From Psococerastis gibbosa (taxonomy: Eukaryota > Arthropoda > Insecta > Psocodea > Psocidae), in the NCBI GenBank assembly GCA_963971405.1, contig OZ020484.1, positions 19,158,001 through 19,222,000 on the forward strand: a stretch of DNA of 64,000 bases, in the 5' to 3' direction. This document shows, piece after piece, positions 7,539 through 62,656 of this stretch. Within the stretch, counting starts at the first letter, position 1. Every line of letters begins with the position of its first letter. The notes beneath the pieces were generated by a model. That model was not told the origin of the DNA, did not search any database, and worked only from the letters and a program-made list of their open reading frames with translations. The translations under genes were made by a program, and so were the position numbers.

Positions 7539-10500
7539 ATTATTGTTGTTGTACTAGTACTATATTTTATGCACACGCAAATGCAAAACTCTTTTTTATT
7601 AAAATTCAAAGCAAACCCAATATTCTTTGGTTCATTGGCTGACGACGGCAGCAATTTGTTACTTTGTTCATAAGAAACCCTCTCCTGGTCAGATTTATTT
7701 TTGCTGTCCATGTAGACTCATATTAGGGCAAGCCTCTGATTGTCATCTGCCATGGTGTTCTCACCTAGACAGGTATGCGCCTCAAACTGCTGAAACCGGG
7801 CATGTACAATAGTACTCATCCAGCAACAGGAATTTGTAATGGCTGAAAAATTTTGGTTCTCTGTCCTCATTAGCTATAACCTCAAAACAGTCAGCTGCTT
7901 AATTTATATTTATTATAATATTATTATTATTATAATTTATGATAAAGCTGTGGTCAGTGGTCCAGGTCCAACCAACCGGCCAAAAATGTTATGTTCTTTT
8001 TTTTAATTTGTAAAAAATAAGAATGCAAAACACCAAAAGCTGGAAGTGAAGGTACACTAATTAAAAAGATGTGTTCAGTTTTCTTCAATTCATTTTCACA
8101 TTTCACATGAATGTTGATTGTATCAGGAACCCCACTATTTTGTGCCGATGTATTCAAAACAATTCTCCCTGTTTACTGTTTTATGTCTGTAAATTCTACA
8201 TTTTTTTGCTGTTGTCAAAATGCCCCACTATTTTACACTATTCGTATAAGACACACTAATCGAGTTACTTACATACTTACACTAGTAGGTGGAGGGGGGG
8301 GGGGTTTAATCCTAGCGCAGGGGCTCCAAATTTATAGTTATGCCACGTGGTGAATCCAGTTAAATAAAATCGCCTAGATTTAGGGCGCATTCGCCATGAG
8401 TCTGATAGTGTAACCTTAAAGGCAGACGTACACGTCTACGATTATTTTTAATCTTAACCTGGGATTAAAAACGTAAACAAAATAATTTTAGACTGGAAAG
8501 GGCCAGTGGAACTCCCTAGATAAGGAAATCAGATCGCAGCTAAAGATTCGTGAGTTTAAAAGCCAGTTACTAAAAAAAATTTCTAGGTACAGAAATCAGA
8601 ACAAATATGTTTGGTGTTCTCTACTGTGACTTGGTGGAACTTAACAACTTAGACATCATAAAAATAAAAATAATGACTTAGCTTAGTCCACAAAATAAAA
8701 ACAATTGAATTAATTATTGTACCACCAGTTCCGGCACTAGGCCATCGTCAGGTGGAAAAATGGTGGAAAGAGATAAACTCTAACTTCCACTGTTAAATAA
8801 ATAATAATATAATAAATATTCGTTTATGAAGACAGCTTTCAAAGAGCTAGAAGTTCTAACGTTACCATTTTGTTATGTTTTTAAAATTCTTTTGTACGCT
8901 AAGAAGATGGCTGTTAATAATGAATGCTCACTTAATAAGTATAGACATAAGTATAATACTAGAAGAAAATTGGACTTAGCTGTTAACCAAAAAAGAAAAA
9001 CATTGTATGTGAAAGCCCCAAAGAAACACAGCTGGGTCATTCCATAAAAAGTGTAAATCAATTAATTGAACCTACGTTTCCGAAATAAGTTATTTTTACA
9101 GCTCTTTCTGTTCCCAGAGCACTCTGCAATGATATTATTTTTATCAACTGAATAATGCTTTTATTAGGAAGGGAAAGGTCGTAGAACCAAATTGGAATTT
9201 GACAGGGCTTTGACACATGACATAAATTGAATTTCGCGACTGATCTACTGTATATGTTGCTCTCTCTGAATTTATTTTTTATGTGATTTTTCACTATTGA
9301 ATCTATCCGGCAATCTCTTCCTTATTGTTCAGTGACAGTGTAGACTCGTATACAAGAACTGAAAACACCTTATATTTGAATTTCCTGTTCAATATATAAT
9401 ATTTCAAATTGTAGTCATGCTGTCGTATACTGTAAAATATTGCGCATAACGTACAGTAGAAATAAGTATAGGTACCTATAAAATTTATATGTATATGCGA
9501 TATCGAATAAGGTTTATTTTTTGCTTAGTTTGAGCAGGCGCAATTTCATAGGTCACCTCATACTCACACTGTATAACACTGTTTAATTAATTAGGCTTTG
9601 GACTCCTTATTACTGCTGCTGATATACCATAGAAGTTAATGCAAGACGTGAGTATTACAATAGCACATGAATTATTATTTAAATAGGTATAAGCATTTTA
9701 ACAATTACACATTAAAAATATATTAAATTCAGCACAGCGTTCTATTGTTTTAAAGTAATTGCATAAAAGCGTAGGGAACTGTAGATAAGATACCACTATA
9801 TTGTATATAATTGTTTAAATATTCGTAATATATTTAATGAGGACAGGCGTATATGCTGTGTTGCATAAAATTGTTAGCTGGATATTTATATAGGTAGAAG
9901 TGCAGGTTTTCAAAAAACCTAACTCTCTTCTTCTGCTGGCTCTACAGCCCTTGATGAGCTTTGGCCTGCTCGACATCACCTCCAGTCATCTCAGTTTTGT
10001 ATAACGCTCCACCATCTACGGACTCCCAACTGGCGAAGGTCAGTTTCAAACTCATCCTTCCCACAAAACCTAATATCATATATTAAAAATCTTGAAATAA
10101 ATTGTATAATAAACACAATAATAAGAATAGTTGACCCTCTCTAGGGGACAAATCCGGAAGAAAAGAAAAATAAACGTGAGCAAAGTTCTATAAATTATAC
10201 GTAATAAATTAAGGTATTGGCCACCCCTGGATCACCACAAAATGTTGGTTTATATTTTGTTGTTTAACTTAATAGTCAAGTTATAGAGATTAAGTCTCGC
10301 CAATTGTTAGTGGACTATGTCATCTAGGATTTTTTTTAGTTTTGGCGCAGTGTTTTTTCCGTGAAATTGACAGGTGGCAGAAATTTACCGAATTATCAAG
10401 TTATCATGGAAAACACCATTTAATATGGTATATGAAATATTCCTCTACCAATTGACAAAACCAAATCTTTTTAGCCTAAGTATTAAATTATATTAAAAAA

Positions 10501-14299: not shown

Positions 14300-15755
14300 T
14301 ATTCTTGGAGAAGTCGTATGAAAAGCTCAGCATTTCAGAATTTCGTCCCAAGTTTACGATTACGAACGCGAAAGCTGCATAAGGATTGAATGGGATTTGG
14401 GCCGGGGCGGGGGTAGTGGGGGCTCGCGCCAGACGCAGAGACACCATCTGGCAAGTATGCCAGCCAGCCCACACCTGACGCTACCTTTTCCACTGTGGCT
14501 CATGCTTATTTTTAAACCGAATTACTATGGTTACATCAATTACACCCTCGCTCAATAAAACGGCCGACCACCGCTCGAATTTACATTTTCGGGTTAACTG
14601 CATTAGAAATGGTTGAAGTCCATTTTTTTTTATTATTGTTATTGCCTTTTATGGCCATAGTCTAGTTCATTGATATTTTCGAACATTAAATTTTGTTTCC
14701 GCATTAACTTTGGCCGATGAAATACCGGTGTCCTTGATGTCAACCCACACGAGCTCCAGCAACCGTGGACAAGCTGAGACATGCTTACCACTGACACAAT
14801 GAATCTAGCCGTAAGCGTGACTTGACCAACTTCGGTTACGAGTATTGACATGGAACTATTATAATGTGCTTTTTGACCCATTAGGTCGTGGCCCGTGATA
14901 TTAATGAATCTGAAACCCTTATTTCATTAGTTTTATGTTGTTTTATGTATAGTAGATACATAGATATAAGTTATTTACGTACAGTGCTAGATATCATTGA
15001 GGCACTTAATGATTATACTTTTTGTAGACTTTATTAAAGCTTCTGTTATTAGAAAACCCATAACAGCTTATAGTGAACAATGTATTTAATAAGTTATTAC
15101 ACTATTATAAGTACAATAGTAGCGTGCATTTAAACATGTAACTTTTGTGTACCCAATGGTATGCTCCTGATAGTGCTGTTTAAAAATGATACTGTGTCAA
15201 ATTGGCACACGCAATGGTTCTGCGTGATGAATGGAAAATATAAACATAATTATCACATATTGTATAGCATACTTAAAAAATATAATTTGAGCATGTAAGA
15301 AATAGCGTTTTAATTGGCTATAGTTATAAAATGAATGTTGTACTTACATAGAGTCCAGAAATTATGTTTTAACACAACCGTATGTACAATTATCAATAAA
15401 GCAGGTGTGTTGTTTGTCGTTCAATAAAGATAAATCATTCATAACTTTTTGCTCATTATCATAATGCACTAATGCAGCAATTAAAATTACACCTAGATAA
15501 ACTATCAGTTTTTCAGTTAATATGCAATTCATGCTGCATTTACAGCCTGACAGTACGATAACACTACATGCAGTAAATGCTCCTGCAAATAGAATTTGAC
15601 CCCGTCAGCAATGAGAAAAAAAACACAATAACCATTACTCCATTTTGTTTATTTTTATTGAAAACTGTTAGGTGGGAGTCCAAATCGCCTCTAGCTATCA
15701 ACCTCTTGTCGGAGCAAAGGTCTGAGGCGACGTTGAATTCTGCTGCCAACCAAAC
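14300..15755. other. Left flank of the large transposon
   Basis: AT-rich, no recognised gene. 15564-15810 is open in two frames, but the ORFs show no family features. Confidence 0.5.
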
Positions 15756-15789
15756 TAGTCCAGTCAAATTGTACATTAAAAATGGGTCG

Positions 15790-16278
15790 TGCATGCAAAA
15801 GGTCATGTAGTTCTAATTTTTTAGTATGTTGTTAGGATCACAACCATTAGTAAAAAACCAAGTTTGCCCCCCTTAAAAAGTTGTGCGACCAGCGTAATGG
15901 CCGAAAAACTTCGAAATTTTCGGACATTTTTTGGTTTTTGGTTAAAATCTCCCAGAGTATGCGTTGGACCGAAAAAACCCCTATATGCAGTATTAAACTG
16001 CATTTAATTATCTACCATTTGAAACCAAAACCATATCCGTAGGGCAATTACTTTAGAAAATACATCATTTCGGAAACAGGCAAAATTTTCGGACATGTGG
16101 AAAATTTTCGGTTTTGCATTGTTTTTCTTCAAATAACGTCAAAAATACTCATCACACAAGAAGTTAATCTGTACTAATGTAAAGGTACTTTAATAAGCTT
16201 TCTTTTGAGCCCAGATGGACACCTACAGCCCTATTCGTACTAATAAATTTCAGATAATCAGCGGAAACAGTGTAATGC
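15790..16278 (+). repeat. Left terminal inverted repeat of the long-TIR transposon
   Basis: This is the inverted copy of 21212-21702. It is AT-rich and has several AAATTTTCGG-type motifs, two of them followed by ACAT. It holds three TTYGAA-type hexamers (TTCGAA 15910-15915, TTTGAA 16018-16023, TTCAAA 16128-16133). Inner end is the GCGGAAACAGTGTAATGC stretch. Any element promoter would lie in this arm or in the 380 bp between it and the ORF. Confidence 0.9.
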
Positions 16279-16657
16279 AAACTGTTTCTTTCCCTTGCTC
16301 CTGCAGGTCTGCTCTAACTATAGAAGCTCCTCCTCCCGCATTCCGATCCCGTGATTCACACTATCAGCAGCACTCAATGCCTTTACCTTTTGGGTTTTCA
16401 TAAGTGTTAATGTAAAATGAATTAAGACATAATACATAATTCATTGGAAATTCAGCCTTATTATGACTGAGTTAACAGAATGAACAATGAATTACTATAG
16501 CACTTACACTCTTGTTTACCTTACGACAGCAGTTCCACCTTAGCGACTAAGTCTAATGAAGAAACGTCAGCATTTCTATGCCAAGTATAATAATGCAATA
16601 CTTTACTCAGTTTGTTCGTGTTGTGCAACGTGCAAGTAGTGAAAAACAATCAGTGGA

Positions 16658-19600
16658 ATGTCTATTCCTGCGGGAGTTTGTTTTATTTGCCGGAGGTCTC
16701 TCGATGAAGGCCCTATTGCAATCGTAAAAAAACGGGGTGTTCAATCATTCATTGAAGCGAGTGTGAAGCGTGGTCTCACGGATATTCAAACTTTACTTCA
16801 AGGGCTCCATGAAGTCACAGTTCATGAGGCGTGCAGAAAGAGGTATGCAACCGAAAAAAATGTTGATATTTCAGTTCGTCGACGAGAACGGGATTCTGCT
16901 CCACAAGCATGCAGATCTTCAAGAGCATCAAGTGCAGTCCATTTCAACTTGCAAAATATTTGTTTTTTGTGTGGTGAAGATATCACTGATGATTTTATCA
17001 AGCTTCAACAGAAATTGCCCTATTCACGAAGGAATATTATCCATACTGTTGAGCAGCTGGGCGTCAGAAAAACAGTGCTGGATGCAGCCCAACGCCGTGG
17101 TGATGAATGGGGGAGAAGTATAGAAATGCGCCTTCGTGCAAGTGAAGACGACTTGGTAGCTGCTGACGCAAGATATCACAGTCTATGTTATAAAAAGCTA
17201 TTTTCCATGCCGTCAATAACTGGAAAGAAGAGGGGGCATCGCCCAGCCAATGATATAGAAGAAGCAATGGAGGGTATATACGAATATCTGTTGGAAAACA
17301 GTGATGAATGCCAGTTCTCGTTAGATGATCTCTTAAAACTATGTGAAGGTGGTTACGTTCCTGACTCACGCACTGCAAAATCTCGCCTTATCAAACGTTT
17401 TGGCGATGACATCGTTATATCTGAGGCTGGCGCTAACAAGGGAGCAGTAGTCTGTTTCAAACACACGGGTCACAAAATTTTGTACGATAATTGGTATACT
17501 GCAAAACAGATTGATAAGCAACAAGAGCGATTGAGGGTGGTAAAGGCAGCGGCAGAGATAATATTAGAAGACATTCGCTCTCAAGTTTACGACACAAGTG
17601 ACTATCCTCCATCCGATGAGTTTTTAAATAATCTTGATTCAGTTATCCCAGAGTCTGTGACTCTATTTTATGAAACAATTGTCCTAAAAAACAAGCGTGG
17701 TCTACAGGAATCATGGAAGAAGAAGTGTGTGTCATTTTCCCACGCTCTCATATCAGCTGTACGACCGCGATCTTTTGTGTCTCCTCTACTGATCGGTGTT
17801 GGGACCTACTTTTACAGAAAATTTGGTTCCAAGCATCTTGTGAACATGTGCTCCGCACTAGGGTTCTCCTGCTCTTATAATGATGTCGTGCAGCTTGAAA
17901 GTTCTGCAATATTGCGGCCTGAATCGTTACCATCCATCGAGGCAGGAGCTTTTGTGCAATTTGTTTTCGACAATGCAGATGTAAACGTAAACACTCTGGA
18001 CGGGGAAAATACATTCCATGAAATGGGGGGCATTATGTGCGTAACGCCTTACACTGCTGTATTGCGGGACAAAAACATCCCACGCTTAAAGAAATATGTT
18101 CCCGCTGACAAAGTTACCTCTCAAAGTGACATAGAAATAAAACATTGCAATATAAGGAAAAATTCAGGGTTATCAACAATCGTGGTAAATGACCTAGAGG
18201 GAATTTATAAAGTGGACGGGGAAATATTGCCTTCAGCCTCAGACCTGTTTTGGTTGTTTGGAAAGTGGAGAAAACCTCTAAGTATGTCAGGATGGAATGG
18301 GTTTATGGAGCAAGTGACTGAAAAACTTGACTTTTCACGCTCCAAAATCCTTTTCCTTCCATTCATTCGAGCCCCCCCTACGGACTACGATACGGTATTC
18401 ACTTCACTCATTGAAGCAAGTAGGCGAAGTAAAGCATGTTCTCAGAAATTCACCTTTGTTACTTTCGATCAGCCGCTATTCATGAAAGCAAGAGACATTG
18501 TTCAAAGTGGTCAACATCCGGAGCTAAGTTGTGTGATTGTGAGACTTGGTGGTTTCCACCTCCTTATGTCCTTCATGGGTTGCATCGGTTCGATAATGGC
18601 TGGTAGTGGATTGAAGGAGTTACTGACGACTATATACGCAGATCATAGTGTTGATAAAATGCTAAATGGCCATGCATATTCACGAGCAGTCCGAGCACAC
18701 ATTTTGACAAACCTTACATTGGCTGGCATTGTTTTGGATGAAGTGCATCTGACTGCTGAGGAGATCAACGAAATTGAAAACTTGTTGTGGATCAGTGAGA
18801 GGTCTCACATCATATCTGCAAAGGAAACTGAAATATTTCAAATCCTCAACGCAAAGTTCAAAAGTGCATTGGATAAAATTGAAAAAAACGGCCCAACCTC
18901 GCAGTTATGGGTCCAATACTTTAGGATGACTACTCTCCTTAAACTATTTATCCAGGCAGAACGGATGGGTGATTGGGACCTTCACTTGTATAGCGTCCAT
19001 TTAATTATGCCTTTCTTTCATTCAGCTGGACATTATTTGTACGCAAAGAGCACCCATCTGTACCTACAGGACATGATGGCATTAGAAAAAGTGATGGATA
19101 AATCTGAATATGATATGTTCACAAATGGGTATTTTACTATCCGCCGATCAGACAAGTTTTGGTCTGGGCTATGGTCAGATTTAACAATTGAACAGAAGTT
19201 GATGAGGTCAATGAAGAGTTGCGGTGGATTAACCCAAGGGCGTGGAATCTCCAGCAGCGTGTTGGCAAGATGGACTGTAGGCATGGTATCCATGGTAAAT
19301 ATATGCGAGGAATTAGAGAGTTTCTGTCGCATTTCCTGTCCTACTGGAGAGCAGCATGTGGATATGAGACCTGCTCGCATCATCCGAGATAATAACGATG
19401 CTAAGAAACTTAGTAGTTGGTTCGCTCTTCACCCTCCATTCCCCACTACTGACAGGTTGCTGTCTCTCAGTAGTGGTTTAGTGGGAGGTCCAAACATTAA
19501 TTGTCACATGGCCCAACAGCTTGGGACTGCTGGAGTTAAGCTCATAATTGGGAAAACGTTTGACTGCGTAGCGTTCAAAAGGAAAAACAAAGTAGCCACG

Positions 19601-21106
19601 CTAGCATCGACAACCTGTTCTGTTAAAGTTAACGACAAGAGACTAGTCATTGATCCACTTTCAATTTTTCAGCGTTTGTGTATAACAAAGCAGTCAGAAA
19701 AGGATTTAGAAGAGCATTTCAAGTATGAATTAGCCCCTTTCCCAACGTCCTTGTTTAATGAACAGGGGATGCGAAAAGGGACAAAATCCACATTCTATTC
19801 TGCCTTCACTCCTCTCTCGAGTCGCACGAAAATAGATGCCAATACCTACGTCGTTTTAGATGGTGGACATTTGTTACACAAAGTGGTGTGGCGACGTAAA
19901 ACGTCAGTAGCAGACGTTGTCTCGGCCTACACTACCTACGTCAAAAATAACTTTGGAAAGAACGTCTCAATCGTTTTTGATGGCTACCCTGAAGACGCCA
20001 CTAAAAGAAACACGAAAACAGCTGAGCGACTCCGTCGCTATTCTGTTCAGACAAGTTATGAATTATCGTTTGAGGAATCCACTGTAATTCAAATCCCTCA
20101 AGATAAAGTGTTGGGTAATGAGAAGAATAAGCGTCGTCTGATAGCACTTCTATGTAGCGTCTTTGAGCAGCAAGGAATAGAGGTGGCGGTTGCACAGGAA
20201 GACGCCGACCGAGAGATCATTGTCACGGCATTATCAAAAAGCCCTTCAAGCGAAAGAGTGGTCATTGTAGGAGAAGACGTGGACCTACTTGTCCTGCTGA
20301 ATGGTTTATGTACTGGAGAGACAAACGTATACCTTCAAAAAAGTGACAATAGTGAAGAAGGCTTCTGTCACTATTCCACGACTTCCTACAACTTTCGAAG
20401 TTCCCGTCTTTCTCCACAGACGGTATTATTTACCCACGCTTTCACAGGGTGTGACACTACCTCAGCACCGTTTGCCATGGGAAAAAACAAATTTGCTAAT
20501 ATATTGGACCAAAAACTAGCTGAAATGACTGATGTCTTTCTACAATCCCAGTCCACCAAAGACGATGTGAAATTAGCCGGCATCAAGTGCTTCGTGGCTC
20601 TGTACGGGGGTGATATAGAAGCTGACATATTGAATCATCTTCGGTATAAGATATTCATCACCTCCGGTAACATTAACCTTGCGCGTCTACCTCCAACTGA
20701 GGATACTGCTGGGCTTCACGCTCTCAGGTGTTATTATCAAGTGCAGAAGTGGTTGGGGACAGACCTAAATCCAAAGGATTGGGGGTGGAAGTTAGACCAC
20801 CATGGGCTTGCCCCAATTACCACAACTATGGATCCCGCTCCTCTCTTGCTCCTCCGGAAAATATCCTGCAAGTGTAAGAAGGGGTGCAGTGGTAGATGCA
20901 GCTGCCGTAAAACTGGACTTAAATGCTCCGTTCTGTGTCAAAACTGCGGTGGCAAATCATGCACCAATGCTACTACAATTGACCTTAACGATTCAGACGA
21001 CGAGGAAGAAGATATGACATCCTCAATAGATGTAGGCAGCACTGATGGGACTCCTATTGTTGGGAACTCTCATGAACCGGGCCCGTCAAAAATGAAGAAA
21101 ATGTGA
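16658..21106 (+). CDS. Transposon-encoded protein: Cys/His clusters, FEN1/XPG-like PIN nuclease, CXC domain
   Basis: Uninterrupted 1482-aa ORF. Seen in order: a CxxC...HxxxC cluster (C8, C11, H56, C59); a second (C102, C105, H174, C177); a central region with FDNADVN (D438, D441) followed by a TFHEMGG segment, and a GGFHLLMSF block near residue 631. From about 1065 comes a PIN/FEN1-like nuclease: VVLDGGH (D1068), VFDGYP (D1108), EDADREI (E1181, D1182, D1184), GEDVDLL (E1206, D1207, D1209) and FTGCDTT (D1266) followed by a glycine/lysine segment resembling the FEN1 helix-two-turn-helix. These acidic residues fit the metal-binding set of that superfamily. Residues 1404 to about 1440 are a Cys-rich CKCKKGCSGRCSCRK block like the tesmin/TSO1 CXC DNA-binding domain. 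I recall similar FDN, GGFH and GCDTTS motifs in many unnamed repetitive invertebrate proteins. Likely role: transposase, or a nuclease accessory to one. The start is the first ATG of the frame; the C8/C11 cluster begins 8 residues later. Confidence 0.85.
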   Translation: MSIPAGVCFICRRSLDEGPIAIVKKRGVQSFIEASVKRGLTDIQTLLQGLHEVTVHEACRKRYATEKNVDISVRRRERDSAPQACRSSRASSAVHFNLQNICFLCGEDITDDFIKLQQKLPYSRRNIIHTVEQLGVRKTVLDAAQRRGDEWGRSIEMRLRASEDDLVAADARYHSLCYKKLFSMPSITGKKRGHRPANDIEEAMEGIYEYLLENSDECQFSLDDLLKLCEGGYVPDSRTAKSRLIKRFGDDIVISEAGANKGAVVCFKHTGHKILYDNWYTAKQIDKQQERLRVVKAAAEIILEDIRSQVYDTSDYPPSDEFLNNLDSVIPESVTLFYETIVLKNKRGLQESWKKKCVSFSHALISAVRPRSFVSPLLIGVGTYFYRKFGSKHLVNMCSALGFSCSYNDVVQLESSAILRPESLPSIEAGAFVQFVFDNADVNVNTLDGENTFHEMGGIMCVTPYTAVLRDKNIPRLKKYVPADKVTSQSDIEIKHCNIRKNSGLSTIVVNDLEGIYKVDGEILPSASDLFWLFGKWRKPLSMSGWNGFMEQVTEKLDFSRSKILFLPFIRAPPTDYDTVFTSLIEASRRSKACSQKFTFVTFDQPLFMKARDIVQSGQHPELSCVIVRLGGFHLLMSFMGCIGSIMAGSGLKELLTTIYADHSVDKMLNGHAYSRAVRAHILTNLTLAGIVLDEVHLTAEEINEIENLLWISERSHIISAKETEIFQILNAKFKSALDKIEKNGPTSQLWVQYFRMTTLLKLFIQAERMGDWDLHLYSVHLIMPFFHSAGHYLYAKSTHLYLQDMMALEKVMDKSEYDMFTNGYFTIRRSDKFWSGLWSDLTIEQKLMRSMKSCGGLTQGRGISSSVLARWTVGMVSMVNICEELESFCRISCPTGEQHVDMRPARIIRDNNDAKKLSSWFALHPPFPTTDRLLSLSSGLVGGPNINCHMAQQLGTAGVKLIIGKTFDCVAFKRKNKVATLASTTCSVKVNDKRLVIDPLSIFQRLCITKQSEKDLEEHFKYELAPFPTSLFNEQGMRKGTKSTFYSAFTPLSSRTKIDANTYVVLDGGHLLHKVVWRRKTSVADVVSAYTTYVKNNFGKNVSIVFDGYPEDATKRNTKTAERLRRYSVQTSYELSFEESTVIQIPQDKVLGNEKNKRRLIALLCSVFEQQGIEVAVAQEDADREIIVTALSKSPSSERVVIVGEDVDLLVLLNGLCTGETNVYLQKSDNSEEGFCHYSTTSYNFRSSRLSPQTVLFTHAFTGCDTTSAPFAMGKNKFANILDQKLAEMTDVFLQSQSTKDDVKLAGIKCFVALYGGDIEADILNHLRYKIFITSGNINLARLPPTEDTAGLHALRCYYQVQKWLGTDLNPKDWGWKLDHHGLAPITTTMDPAPLLLLRKISCKCKKGCSGRCSCRKTGLKCSVLCQNCGGKSCTNATTIDLNDSDDEEEDMTSSIDVGSTDGTPIVGNSHEPGPSKMKKM

Positions 21107-21211
21107 ATGTAAAAAAAAATTTGTTCAAGTACATTTAAAATATATAGGCCTACATAAGTAAAGTAATATTGTTTGTCTACTGCTATTTCTGGACGTGTAG
21201 TATCAAAATTC

Positions 21212-21702
21212 GCATTACACAGTTTCCGCTGATTATCTGAAATTTATTAGTACGAATAGGGCTATAGGTGTCTATCTCGTCTCAAATGAAAGCTTATTAA
21301 AGTATCTTTAAATTTGTATGAAGTAACTTTCTTGTGGAATGAGTATTTTTGACGTTATTTGAAGAAAAACAATGCAAAACCGAAAATTTTCCACATGTCC
21401 GAAAATTTTGCCTGTTTCCGAAATGCTGTATTTTCTAAAGTAATTGCCCTACGGATTTGGTTTTGGTTTCAAATGGTAGATAATTAAATGCAGTTTAATA
21501 CTACATATAGGGGTTCTTTCGGTCCAACGCATATTTAGGGAGATTTTAACCAAAAACCAAAAAATGTCCGAAAATTTCGAAGTTTTTCGGCCATTACGCT
21601 GGTCGCACAACTTTTTAAGGGGGGCAAACTTGGTTTTTTACTAATGGTTGTGATCCTAACAACATACTAAAAAATTAGAACTACATGACCTTTTGCAAGC
21701 AC
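21212..21702 (-). repeat. Right terminal inverted repeat of the long-TIR transposon
   Basis: Reverse complement of the left arm, with scattered substitutions and small indels. The hexamers recur at mirrored places (TTTGAA 21358-21363, TTCAAA 21468-21473, TTCGAA 21577-21582). It begins 105 bp after the ORF stop, so the transcript probably ends in or just before it. Confidence 0.9.
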
Positions 21703-22106
21703 TGATGTCTTATTTGACTGGACTAAACCGTTCACCCGAACATCCACGGCGTACATTGCCACTGTCTCTTCTTGTCTTAGAAGGCTCATTTTGCTCTTAC
21801 TTCTACGGCGAAGCGAAACACTGCCCGTTCCAGAGTATATTGCTGTCTGCATCAAAACAAAACTGATGCTAAACATTAAATATGCAAAATGCTGTACTAC
21901 AATAAATTAGGTGTTAATCGTTTTAACTATCAATAATAACGTAATATATCTGCACTGTATGTGCACGACGCAATTACTCACATGCGTCTGATAAGATAAA
22001 GCAGCAGACTGCACTACTTGACGAAGTTTAAATAATTAGATTTGCAGCTACATAAAATATTTCTGTATGGGTACTCGTATATACCGTCTAAGCAATGAGT
22101 GACGAG

Positions 22107-22385: not shown

Positions 22386-23148
22386 GTTACGAGTATATGT
22401 ACAGTGCAGCTCCAACTATCCGAAATCTGATAATTTAATTTTTGTCATAAACGGGTCTAATTTAGACGGAAAAGGTATTTTTGAAGCTCCATTTCGACAA
22501 TTTTATTCAATTTTAAAAAATTATAATCTATGAAGCAACCCTGTGCCGGCCTGTGGCAGTGTAGATGTATGAAGGCTATATGTGCGCCCGCATTCACCGT
22601 AAACATAGCTTAGTAAGTTAGAAAAAATATTAAGTGCATGACGAAACTTAGCGTGTATAATCGCACATAATCGCGAGACACATGCATCACTATGCTCCTA
22701 ATTTTTCCATCCCAGGGTTTGGAGCTGAAAAAATGCTCATACCAATAGGCAATGCTAACATAAAAATTGAATTTACAAATGGGGAGGCACATCAGACAAG
22801 TTGACGCTGCTGACACACCAGGTAAAGGCGGCAGGCAGCACGTGGCCGCTGCAGGGTGCAGATGTAAATAAAGCAGCACCCCTTCAGTGCCAGCAGCAGG
22901 GGGCTTGATTGCCTACCTCAATCAACCACTAGATTTCTTCACAATCGACCTTGAAACACCCTCGGAACCCCACAGCTATATTTTGTAGACGCATCAGCAG
23001 ATATAGTAGGGGCTACACTTTCTTTCCCGCATTTTTCATTCCGTATTTAAATCATTGAAATTATATTGTCATACCACTCGTTCTTTTTGCGTTTTTAAAT
23101 TAGGTAAATAAATTGGCTCTTAATTTCATAATGAATCAATAGATATAG

Positions 23149-23705
23149 GCCGTGGTCGTTCTGAAAGCGTACATCCAAACGTTTCGTCAACATCTGCGGT
23201 CGACATCTTCAGTGGAACAATGGCGGATCCAGGGGGGGGGTCATGACCCCCTTAAATGAGTAAATTCATAGTAAATTTATACGATACCTAGTTAAAAAAA
23301 AATTGAATAAAACTCAACTTTTCAACCAAAAAAATTACCTTTTCAACTTACAAAAACTTGTGACCCCCCCCCCCCCTAAATTTTCGGCTGGATCCGCCCT
23401 TGCAGTGGATATGCGTAGACTTTTAAGATTGTATCTCGGAGGCTCAGCAGCAACTGTTTTGCTGTTTTGTAGCAACAGCAGATGTTGACGAATGACGAAT
23501 CAGTATCATAGATGACAAGCCGTGGTAGTTTTGAAAGCGTATATCCAAACGTTTCGTCAACATCTGCGGTCGACATCTTCAGTGCAACTGCGTAGACTTC
23601 TAAGATTGTTTCTCGGAGAGCAGCAACTGTTTAGCTGTTTTGTAGCAACAGCTGATATTGACGAAACGTTTGGATGTAAGTTTTCAGAACGACCACGGCC
23701 TATCA
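23149..23705 (+). repeat. Two tandem palindromic repeat units
   Basis: Unit 1 begins at 23149 and unit 2 at 23519, both with CCGTGGT.GTT.TGAAAGCG and CAAACGTTTCGTCAACATCT. Each ends in the inverse words (AACAGC.GAT.TTGACGAA). Unit 1 carries the nested family C MITE at 23218-23402; unit 2 does not. Confidence 0.8.
23218..23402 (+). mobile_element. hAT-like MITE, family C (CAATGGCGGATCCA ends)
   Basis: Ends CAATGGCGGATCC and GGATCCGCCCTTG; G run near the left end, C run near the right. Flanks CAGTGGAA / CAGTGGAT differ at one base, fitting an 8-bp TSD. The neighbouring tandem copy at 23519 shows the site without the insertion. Confidence 0.9.
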
Positions 23706-24039
23706 TCCCGGATTCTATTGATTCATCACGTACAGTAACAGTGAAAGCCTGTGTAATTTTATCATTTCATAATGTCTCCACTCTAAAAGTAGCCCCCAGC
23801 AGAATGGCGGGAGGGTCAGTGAATTGGGCCGTGCAGGTGCAGGCAGCACCTGTCGATAACGGCTGTACTGGCCGCTGCCTTCAACTATACCAAGTTATGT
23901 CATTTGCTTGTATACGATTAGCATTAGACCCCACTGCCTATCTGGTAGCTCTCGATTAATAAATAATTCTCAGTCGTTCGACCAACCTAACTTATATAGT
24001 AGATAATGCACCGTAACTATTTTTCTACATTACTTTTTG

Positions 24040-52900: not shown

Positions 52901-55900
52901 TGTAGGGTTGCAACATAAAAGAAAAGATTGGAAAATGTAAAACAAATGAACAATCCAACAGAATCGCATGCGCAGAAGTTCTGCGGCAAGCCCCAACCAC
53001 CATTTGGCTTGAGAAATTTTCGTGCCATTATTCATGGGTTGGTGTGTGCAATGTTATAATAGTAACTTCTTACATTCCGTACTGTGTGAAACCAACCATG
53101 AACGCAAGAAAAGTTTTTTTTTGTTTTGAGAATGGCTAATAATGACTCTGTGTACATAGGTATACCGTGAAGAGCGTCCTAAAGAAGCATGAGCGCACTC
53201 ATTCAAACGAGCGGCCCTATGTCTGCGGAAAATGTGGCAAATCTTTCATCCACTCATACAATCTCCGAAATCATGAGCGCTCCCATCAACAAGGTAATTT
53301 ATGCATTAATCACATATTCACTGAATTCCTCTTAAATTTCTCAGACCAGACCTGAAATCACATTCAGGAAATAATTTAAGTGCATAACCTGAATCTCCTT
53401 ACTAATTTGACAGGCCACCCATCATGCAATTTTCAGAATTTCTGTATAGGGACTAGAAGAAAGCATAAATTGTTTGAATCCATCGAGGAAATAAAAAAAT
53501 AAACACACTTCAAATGGATGATCACCTCTATCGTATAGTTGACCGCTGATCACCCGATCCTTACATCATACCGCTCGCCTTGCTTTACATGGCGAAGTGA
53601 AACCGGTTGCATTTTAAATACATTTTGGCAGTAGAGTGCTTCTACTTGCAGCAGTTTAATATATTCTATTAACTACGACTTGCTTGCCGACAGGATTGTT
53701 TAGCGCATAGGCTGACCATAGTCAAATATCGAGATGTTAAATTGTATTTGTAATTTGAACAAGCTACAGCCAGATTCACATGAATTTTATTCTAATTTTC
53801 TGTGAAAAATGAAACTTTTACTGTTGTTCCTAATAGTAACCTATGTTATAAGAGTTTAATTGCCAACAAGGACAACAAACAGCTTATTAAATTGGATGAG
53901 ATGTATACCAAGCATCTCTTGCATGTGTATGTGAAGATATACTGCATATAATCTTAAAAAAATAGTATATTGTATTTTAGATTGGCAGTTACTGAGTTTA
54001 TTAATGAAATAATGAATCTGATAATTCTGAATAAAAACTATGGATTTATTAGCCATATTTTATTCCATTTACGATCCATTTAGGAAACTGGTCAATTTTG
54101 AAACTACAAACGGTACCGGTTCGACGTCGGCGTCAGATTTTGAGAAATTTATCATTGAAGCAAATGGACTTGGTGAATGGTTGGTTCAAAACCGCAGATT
54201 TTAGAAGGTTTCTATGAGCTGGCGTGTCGGGTGGAAAACCGTGCGCTCGGCCACGCCAGCTGGCGAATTCGTCAAGAAATCTTCTGCTAGTCCTATGGCT
54301 ACAATAGAAGAGACGTCGGCAAATCGCGACTGGGTGAATCGTTCATGTATACCGGGCCTTAATATTAAGTATTTAACGATTTCAGAGCGTCCATTTCCCT
54401 GTGAAATTTGCAATAAGGCGTTTAAAGATCGGAAGGATAAGGAAAAACACGAGTTGACGCACAGTGCAGTACGCTTATTTGAATGTGACCAGTGCTCCAA
54501 GAGTTTTGTCACTGAGGTCAGACTGCGGGCCCATGTGCGCAAACACAATATGTCGCGCACACATATCTGCGAAATCTGCAATAAGGGGTTCAGAGAGGCG
54601 TTTCAGCTTCGAAAACACGTGATGATCCATGAGGTGAAGCGCGAGCGGCCGTTTCCGTGCGACTGCGGCAGGGCGTTCACAGACGCCACCTCCTTGAAGA
54701 GACATCAGCAACTGCACGCAGGCATTCTCAACTATTATTGTTCCATTTGTCAGAAGGGATTTTTCGGGAAAACAGCATGCAAAAAACACGAGTTGACGCA
54801 TTCGGACACGAAAAATGTTGCTTGTGATGAGTGTAGTAAGTGTTTCCGGGACGAAGATGCGTTGAAAAGGCACAAGCGCGTTCACCTGGATGTCAAGCCA
54901 TTTGTGTGTGAAACTTGCGGGAAATCTTATTTTGATGTGAGCTCGCTAAGGAATCACGAACAGGTAAGAAAGAAACTGTTAATAAATAAGAAATTTATCC
55001 ACCAAATTGGGCTGATGCTACAATTGTAATTCGAATATTTTCACTGATTTCTCAATTTCATCGCTTTGAACTCGCTAAACTAGTCGTACACAGTTGTTTT
55101 GGATCATGCTTCATCGCCAAATGTGGCATTGGATTGATGATTAATACATTCCATAATTCCACATCGAAAGTCATGATAGATCATGGCTCGATAATGCCAT
55201 TTTCTGTGGCGAGTTAGATTGCTGATCTAGCTGACTTTCTTTTTTTAATTTGTCAGAGCGGCAGTTTCGCGTATGTACAGAAGCATGGGCCAAGTTCGCC
55301 ATATGTCTTGGTGGATGTCACTCCTCAGCGGTTTGGGCCATTTCGAATACATAAATAACAACCCTCGTACAATTGGGGTAATAGCAAATTAGCTAAAGGT
55401 TAGATTTGATGTATGGTTGTGCAGATAATACTGGTCACTGGTCGGGAGATCACTTTGTTTTTCATGAAATATGTGTGCTGAAACTCAATCAGTGCGGTAA
55501 AAATAATTTAAGAGATGTGACAGCTCATCTATATTTGCTTTCTAATCCTCAATAATCTGACTACACCTACTTTAAGGATCCTTGATATATGAAATAGTAT
55601 ATTAACAAACTAAGTAAGCCCTCCCACTATCCACTGAGTTGCCTGGCGACATGGGTACTTTCCTTAATTCTTTCAACTTTTATGTAGGGTTGGTCACTAT
55701 GAGTTTTGGCAATAGTTAGATCCATATAGGCCTAGGTGGTGTCTCTTCACACCAATTACTCTTCTAAAGGTGTCTTAGGCGACTACCATGGCAAGAGCTT
55801 CAGTTAGTTTGAAGTCCTTGTGCACTTGTTGTTAATTTCAGACGCATATGAATATCATTCACACTTGTTCCTGTGGAAAGGACTTTGAGACGTTGCGAGG

Positions 55901-61573: not shown

Positions 61574-62656
61574 TTAAATCGGATTATGGGCTGCCTTACG
61601 TGATAATATTCGGGGCGAGCGCCGCGTGTCTCGCATTGGCGTCAGAACTTCAAGAGGCAGTGCCTTCAGGGGTGTGGCGCGACTCCTCGGCGTTCCACGT
61701 GCTTGACTCCTGGGTGTCTTCAGGGCCTGCGCGGCTGTTGTCAGAGCTTGTTTTATCAAGGGAGCACGCGACTGCAAGCTAAGCTCATTCCTTACGGATT
61801 GCAATCGCAATTCCATGGAACGATTACTGCGATCTGATTCCATGTCAGTACTATGATTTAAAGAATCAAAAAACTTGGTCTTAGCATGTACCATCCCAGT
61901 ATTATTTCTTCGTATGTTCACGATAGAATCTCGGCGCTCAGGTATTTCACAAAATTTCCTCAGTGGAGAAGAGACAGATACAGGTGAGCCAGTCTTTAAC
62001 TTGTTCTTTGCTGACATTTTCTTAGTATTGCCACTCAGTTCCTGTGGACTTCGCAAACCAGTTTGTCGGGTGTTAGGGCGCCCTCGTTGTAAATTGGTTC
62101 TAGGACCGGCGGAATTGCTCCGAGCTAATTCTCGTGACCGTCTACGTATGGATCCTATTTTTCGCTCACTTGGCGACCTTGCTACCCTGCCTTCAGAGCT
62201 CCAACGAAGTCTGACGCTTTTCCTAAGCTGAGGGCCTATTTGTTCTGATTGCACGACAACCCTCTGGAAGGCTTCATTAACTGCCGCAGCAGTAGTTACA
62301 TCCCTATCAGCAGCAGTTGCTTTCCTTTCATTTTCATCTAAATTTAGTCTTAAACCCTCGTTAAGTTGCACTGCTAAGCGCTCGGATTCCAGGCTCATTC
62401 GAATGTCTTTGGACTCGTGGCGTTTTTCTAATAATTTCTCCATTGAACTAACACGAATTTTCATGTCATCGTATTCCTTCCTCGATATCGTGACCAATTC
62501 ATCTTTATCGCCTGCATTTGGATCAATAATTTCCTGGTTCTCGTTATTTACTTTAGGACTCGATTTTCTCTTTCTCCAAGTCATATGACTTAATTTTCGC
62601 TCTATGTTTTTTTTGCTCATCATCATGTTGCTAGTGCTTTTTGACGTCTTCAGACC
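61574..62656 (-). CDS. Unidentified basic Ser/Arg-rich protein, last coding exon
   Basis: Minus-strand exon open from an acceptor (TTTCAG|GGTCTG, first exon base 62656) to a stop at 61574; 360 codons. Reading continues upstream of the first ATG (GLKTSKSTSNMMMSKKNIE), so the ATG at 62626 is internal. Content: a basic segment (MTWRKRKSS), a likely short coiled coil (VTISRKEYDDMKIRVSSMEK and about 20 more residues), and a long Arg/Ser-rich low-complexity tail with many SP/TP sites (RSPSERKIGS, TPRSQARGTPRSRATP, RRSPRILSRK), typical of a phosphorylated cytoskeletal or mitotic regulator. The organisation (coiled coil, then RSPS-KIG-RRRSRE) faintly recalls C-terminal tails of some RhoGAPs; this is only a guess. 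The exon joins in phase to 63496-63541. Confidence 0.7.
   Translation of the reverse strand, partial: GLKTSKSTSNMMMSKKNIERKLSHMTWRKRKSSPKVNNENQEIIDPNAGDKDELVTISRKEYDDMKIRVSSMEKLLEKRHESKDIRMSLESERLAVQLNEGLRLNLDENERKATAADRDVTTAAAVNEAFQRVVVQSEQIGPQLRKSVRLRWSSEGRVARSPSERKIGSIRRRSRELARSNSAGPRTNLQRGRPNTRQTGLRSPQELSGNTKKMSAKNKLKTGSPVSVSSPLRKFCEIPERRDSIVNIRRNNTGMVHAKTKFFDSLNHSTDMESDRSNRSMELRLQSVRNELSLQSRAPLIKQALTTAAQALKTPRSQARGTPRSRATPLKALPLEVLTPMRDTRRSPRILSRKAAHNPI

Follow-up and report, generated by a model that had tools for sequence, protein, structure and literature searches.

The window (the whole 64,000-nucleotide stretch of Psococerastis gibbosa DNA that was analysed) contains a complete, autonomous and very recently mobile DNA transposon. 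The original prediction of a DNA transposon with long terminal inverted repeats (TIRs) around a single FEN1-like nuclease/CXC protein was borne out, while its designation as a new type was overstated: a passage of PMC10045372 describes the Academ lineage AcademX with a nuclease and 3-4-bp duplications, a correspondence of description only. As a whole, the best explanation, which we consider probable, is an autonomous, recently mobile transposon of the Academ kind (AcademX) whose protein carries both a DDE and a PIN centre.

Extent, ends and genomic copies of the element

The element occupies positions 15756-21725 of the forward strand (5,970 bp), slightly more than the 15790-21702 first outlined. 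It runs from TAGTCCAGTCAAAT to ATTTGACTGGACTA between exact 3-bp target-site duplications, AAC, at 15753-15755 and 21726-21728. The inverted arms of about 490 bp noticed at the outset match with 94.9% identity over 494 columns (15789-16281 against 21209-21702). The full TIRs measure 526 bp on the left (15756-16281, plus strand) and 517 bp on the right (21209-21725, minus strand), and the arm-to-arm alignment contains 488 identities, 28 mismatches and 11 gap positions. The true ends lie about 30 bp outside the arms first noticed, beyond a short divergent segment that includes a 10-bp indel, and are marked by an identical 14-mer, TAGTCCAGTCAAAT, at 15756-15769 and, as its reverse complement, at 21712-21725. 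Searched genome-wide, this 14-mer gave 41 matches, 38 of them at the 19 copies described below; the remaining three are close to the base-count expectation (about 3), a reversed-pattern control gave one match, and no MITE family with exactly this end was seen in the search.

Each arm also contains three AAATTTTCGG motifs, at 15914-15923, 16083 and 16102 on the plus strand and at 21380, 21399 and 21568 on the minus strand. Six of the eight occurrences within the 64-kb window fall in the arms, and these motifs are candidate protein-binding sites, perhaps bound by the zinc fingers and the CXC domain. Elsewhere in the window, direct and inverted repeats of 39-70 bp cluster at 23145-23716, to the right of the element. 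An ORF at 54214-55029 has six C2H2 zinc-finger matches, and a 350-aa ORF at 61574-62626 (minus strand) has no Pfam match at E up to 0.01.

When the host assembly (409 Mb, 68 contigs) was searched with the left arm, all 38 candidates were scored and 38 matches were obtained, corresponding to 19 elements with the window copy included. The original prediction had named arms present only once as grounds for its own refutation; the 19 copies, each with a 3-4-bp duplication, dispose of that possibility. All 19 were compared with their flanks, and all begin and end at the same bases. Seventeen, including the window copy, are 5,970 bp long with 0-5 base differences from the window copy, and the 1,482-aa ORF is open throughout in 17 of the 19, with 0-2 amino-acid changes. 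Three copies (L011, L016 and L018) match the window copy at every base, while L020 has a 2-bp deletion and L012 a 2,193-bp insert, with no other mismatch in either. Eighteen copies have a duplication of exactly 3 bp, and L025 has one of exactly 4 bp (ATTT). A TA duplication within the TIR had been an option but was abandoned, as the duplications of the 19 copies lie outside TAGTCC.

An empty site, for which the original prediction had proposed a search, was detected for L020, the one insertion site examined among the 19. This copy sits in repeated sequence. Joining its two flanks through one ACC gives a sequence that agrees in 400 of 400 bases with each of the 40 scored places (the best 40 of 339 candidates), which shows the pre-insertion site and a clean, precise insertion. 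The reading as a host gene flanked by chance or segmental repeats, to which one long intact ORF would be suited, is refuted by the 19 dispersed near-identical copies, their duplications and the empty site, and we give it practically no credence. The left and right arms differ by about 5%, and this difference is common to the copies; it therefore predates the burst and gives no date for the insertion.

Some individual copies have features of their own. In L028 (G000:C13:3619695-3626406), a 35-bp stretch of the left arm carries five variants that belong to the right arm, which points to conversion between arms within a single copy. The insert that splits L012 (G000:C19:20367359-20376263) has CAGGGCTGGAAC inverted ends, a 275-aa frame that by eye resembles a hAT C-terminus, and a junction sharing the bases TGTATA. 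A gypsy-like integrase stretch, recognized by eye (e.g. C14:21895197-21895596), shows no difference over 400 bp among the 40 scored places, the best 40 of 339 candidates, so this retroelement family has also multiplied very recently.

Two sister families were detected in the same genome through a protein search in which 32 of 214 first-look candidates were scored and 33 matches listed, and the family counts are lower bounds. The second family, 47-49% identical to the window protein, occupies at least eight places, seven of which were compared (L030-L036; 5,793-5,807 bp). Its longest ATG-initiated ORF is 1,564 aa in four of the seven and shorter in three, and its duplications are 3 bp in all seven. 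The third family (about 2.0 kb, at least four copies, L037-L040) has arms of about 345 bp with TAGTCCGGTCAAT ends and 3-bp duplications in 4/4. Two of the four encode a 354-aa protein with the C-terminal half of the PIN region and the CXC domain, without the D1068 and D1108 region, and the ORF is shorter in the other two. The arm of this family has at least 40 genome matches (the best 40 of 140 candidates). Among the matches listed there are at least 16 facing arm pairs, spanning about 1.7 to 2.15 kb, and no full-length partner was seen. This non-autonomous family is probably moved in trans. TAGTCC[A/G]GTCA ends are common to all three families, with one changed base among the 22 sister-family ends examined (right end of L036). 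The duplication is 3 bp in 11 of 11 sister-family copies and, for the three families together, 3 bp in 29 of 30 copies and 4 bp in one.

Conserved regions of the encoded protein

As originally reported, a single intact ORF of 1,482 codons, with no internal stop, lies between the arms (16658-21106, plus strand, as are all features below). No Pfam family matched its product at E up to 1, and searches of the PDB by sequence and by profile gave best matches of only E 0.27 and worse. A sequence search retrieved at least 43 homologues, with a beetle, a butterfly, an ant and a wasp among the named hosts, and a profile search recovered 42 of these 43 and one more. The distant homologue P0042 retrieved at least 98 matches, itself included, with hosts such as corals, a sea cucumber and fish. 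Each protein search scored the best 7,999-8,000 candidates, those sharing most words. From the 141 proteins collected, the 100 of at least 1,300 aa were aligned with the window protein and the 41 shorter ones were left out. No relatives were found in viral contigs (three scans), in plasmid records (DNA search) or in phage and plasmid records (protein search). GTDB contigs contained one partial fragment (L001), in a mussel-symbiont (Bathymodiolus symbiont) assembly, and a piece of the same protein family (P0067) was present in a Sedimenticola MAG; these pieces in bacterial symbiont assemblies are probably host contamination.

Two C2HC fingers are found at the N-terminus. The first (C8, C11, H56 and C59; 16679-16834) is kept in 91-93 of the 92-93 sequences that have the residue, and the second (C102, C105, H174 and C177; 16961-17188) in all of them (94, 95, 100 and 100, respectively). 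At the other end, the predicted CXC (tesmin/TSO1-like) domain spans C1404-C1435 (20867-20968); its nine cysteines are kept in 87-90 of 90-93 sequences with the residue, and CXC is also the UniRef name of some relatives. The window protein has 173 acidic residues, only 17 of which stay acidic in at least 95% of the sequences with the residue: D165, D305, D438, D441, D604, D841, E845, D902, D911, E1024 and seven acids of the PIN region. Twelve of these are D438, D441, D604, D841, E845 and the seven PIN acids, while D165, D305, D902, D911 and E1024 lie outside both centres. Both sets (D438/D604/E845 and PIN) are kept in about 100 homologues.

An RNase H-like domain had been suspected in the central region, at FDNADVN with D438 and D441. 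Both residues proved conserved (101/101 and 99/101); their probable partners, D604 and E845, each invariant in the 101-protein alignment, had gone unnamed. Together with H634 (101/101) and D841 (100/101), they would make up an RNase H-type (DDE) transposase centre at 17945-19207, an assignment made because of this conservation pattern, with D438, D604, E845 and H634 invariant. In some relatives, residues of about 600-900 weakly match Pfam DUF6589, a family that no paper found in our literature search names. It matched eight of the 31 members of alignment A1 (30 relatives plus the window protein, which has no such match), with a best E of 5.8e-05, and the three members whose scores were examined fall below the curated cutoff. 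Among the 98 P0042-search matches, DUF6589 was precomputed for 18, and a rescan of six found three that pass the cutoff (P0047, P0122 and P0138).

The second putative centre is a FEN1/XPG-like PIN nuclease at 19835-20482. Acidic residues in FEN1/XPG order had been predicted here, and seven of them are conserved in 97-100 of 97-100 sequences: D1068 (100/100), D1108 (98/99), D or E at 1182 (98/98), D1184 (98/98), D1207 (97/98), D1209 (97/98) and D1266 (97/97). E1181, also listed in that prediction, is kept in only 85 of 98. We compared a profile of residues 1030-1395 (58 sequences) with five archaeal FEN1 sequences. In this one HHalign comparison the score was modest (27.3 over 220 columns, P 0.008, probability 5%, 12% identity), and what we take to be the seven catalytic acids of P. 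furiosus FEN-1 were all in register with D1068, D1108, D1182, D1184, D1207, D1209 and D1266. The reversed profile scored 14.6 and none of 300 column shuffles reached 27.3 (best 22.1), while two of 200 15-column block shuffles scored above it (30.8 and 28.1). The PIN assignment is thus made because the acids are in register and conserved. FEN1/XPG nucleases resemble this region in the order and register of the seven acids, and their GIGLKK region falls on MGKNKF; they differ in the low identity and in that here the PIN region is fused to a transposase and a CXC domain.

Relation to described superfamilies

The nuclease of AcademX is XPG-type, and our literature search found no paper printing Academ together with XPG. 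In a passage of PMC10045372, AcademX has duplications of 3 or 4 bp and AcademH of 9 or 10 bp. Academ is listed among DDD/E superfamilies in PMC9587614, and curated bivalve Academ elements average 5,565 bp in PMC10294476, each in the part available. The portions available of other sources count Academ among the superfamilies present in all species investigated (PMC6327564), give it by name only (PMC4455052 and PMC12210899) or mention AcademH helicases (PMC10799480). As far as these descriptions go, the element resembles AcademX (Repbase) in its nuclease, represented by the PIN/FEN1-like region, in its duplications of 3 or 4 bp, shared by the sister families, and in its length of 5,970 bp; the putative D438/D604/E845 centre would correspond to the DDD/E transposase. 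Since a nuclease and 3-4-bp duplications fit AcademX as printed, the element most likely belongs to this lineage of the Academ superfamily, assigned indirectly, by printed description, and is probably not a new superfamily but a member of an already described kind. AcademH, of the same superfamily, was rejected: it has a helicase and 9-10-bp duplications as described, whereas the present element has a nuclease and 3-4-bp duplications, and no Pfam helicase matched in the window protein or the A1 members.

Alternatively, the element could represent an unnamed superfamily outside Academ, combining DDE, PIN and CXC. Academ was compared by description rather than by sequence homology, and the Academ descriptions, in the parts available, name neither a CXC domain nor DUF6589. 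Nevertheless, the AcademX combination of nuclease and short duplications as printed (PMC10045372, in part) and the bivalve mean length, close to that of the element (PMC10294476, in part), argue against this reading, which we consider improbable.

KDZ/Zisupton, which the original prediction had mentioned as a possible match, also has a CXC domain. Its duplications are of about 8 bp, as opposed to 3-4 bp here, and we know of no PIN nuclease in it; it fits less well by duplication length and was rejected. piggyBac was rejected as well: it makes TTAA duplications, found in none of the 30 copies. The same holds for Kolobok, to which a passage of PMC9587614 ascribes TTAA duplications. According to that source, in the part available, hAT, P, MuDR, Kolobok and Dada have a C/DxxH motif between the second D and the last E. 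No conserved C/DxxH was seen in the D604-E845 interval, where the invariant H634 is preceded at -3 by G631, itself invariant in alignments A1 and A2, and membership in these five superfamilies was rejected.

Possible roles of the two centres

In the AcademX-type explanation, the fingers and the CXC domain would bind the TIRs and the putative D438/D604/E845 centre would nick the 3' ends. The same centre would then join these ends to target DNA with a stagger of 3 bp, rarely 4 bp, the length seen in the duplications. The PIN centre would cut the 5' strands that are not transferred and so release the element fully double-cut, as TnsA does for TnsB in Tn7. Given the rest of the explanation, we put this role of the PIN centre, suggested by analogy, at somewhat short of an even chance.

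The main alternative is that the DDE centre cuts both strands and the PIN centre works after joining, where it would trim 5' flaps or gaps at the new junctions and help set the 3-4-bp duplication. Flap cutting is the established job of FEN1. Moreover, a passage of PMC10045372 says that AcademH and AcademX differ in duplication length in a way that 'seems related' to the one having a helicase and the other a nuclease. However, host FEN1 is available, and that about 100 relatives keep a nuclease of their own suggests an earlier step specific to the element; flap trimming is a tenable reading that we lean against. It is very improbable that the PIN centre is itself the transposase and D438/D604/E845 structural: all seven PIN acids are conserved, but D438, D604 and E845 are kept as tightly, and DDE strand transfer typically leaves a short stagger of fixed length.

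With near- or wholly identical copies, an intact ORF, known ends, duplications and an empty site, the transposon with its two putative centres is a ready-made test element: its two active sites can be inactivated one at a time and the role of the second cutter tested. A natural passenger is at hand in the same genome, in the non-autonomous family whose ends are of the same kind. This bears on the question of what a flap-type nuclease is for in those DNA transposons that also have a DDE transposase.

If one polypeptide did use an RNase H-type centre on the transferred strand and, on the other, a FEN1-fold PIN centre, this eukaryotic transposon would have reinvented the logic of Tn7 TnsA/TnsB independently and would still be using it in this animal, which we regard as possible and rather unlikely. 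In Tn7, TnsA and TnsB are two unlike nucleases that share the strand cuts, and the likeness to the present element is in this working only. No homology is claimed: TnsA is restriction-enzyme-like and a separate protein, whereas here both putative centres lie in one polypeptide.
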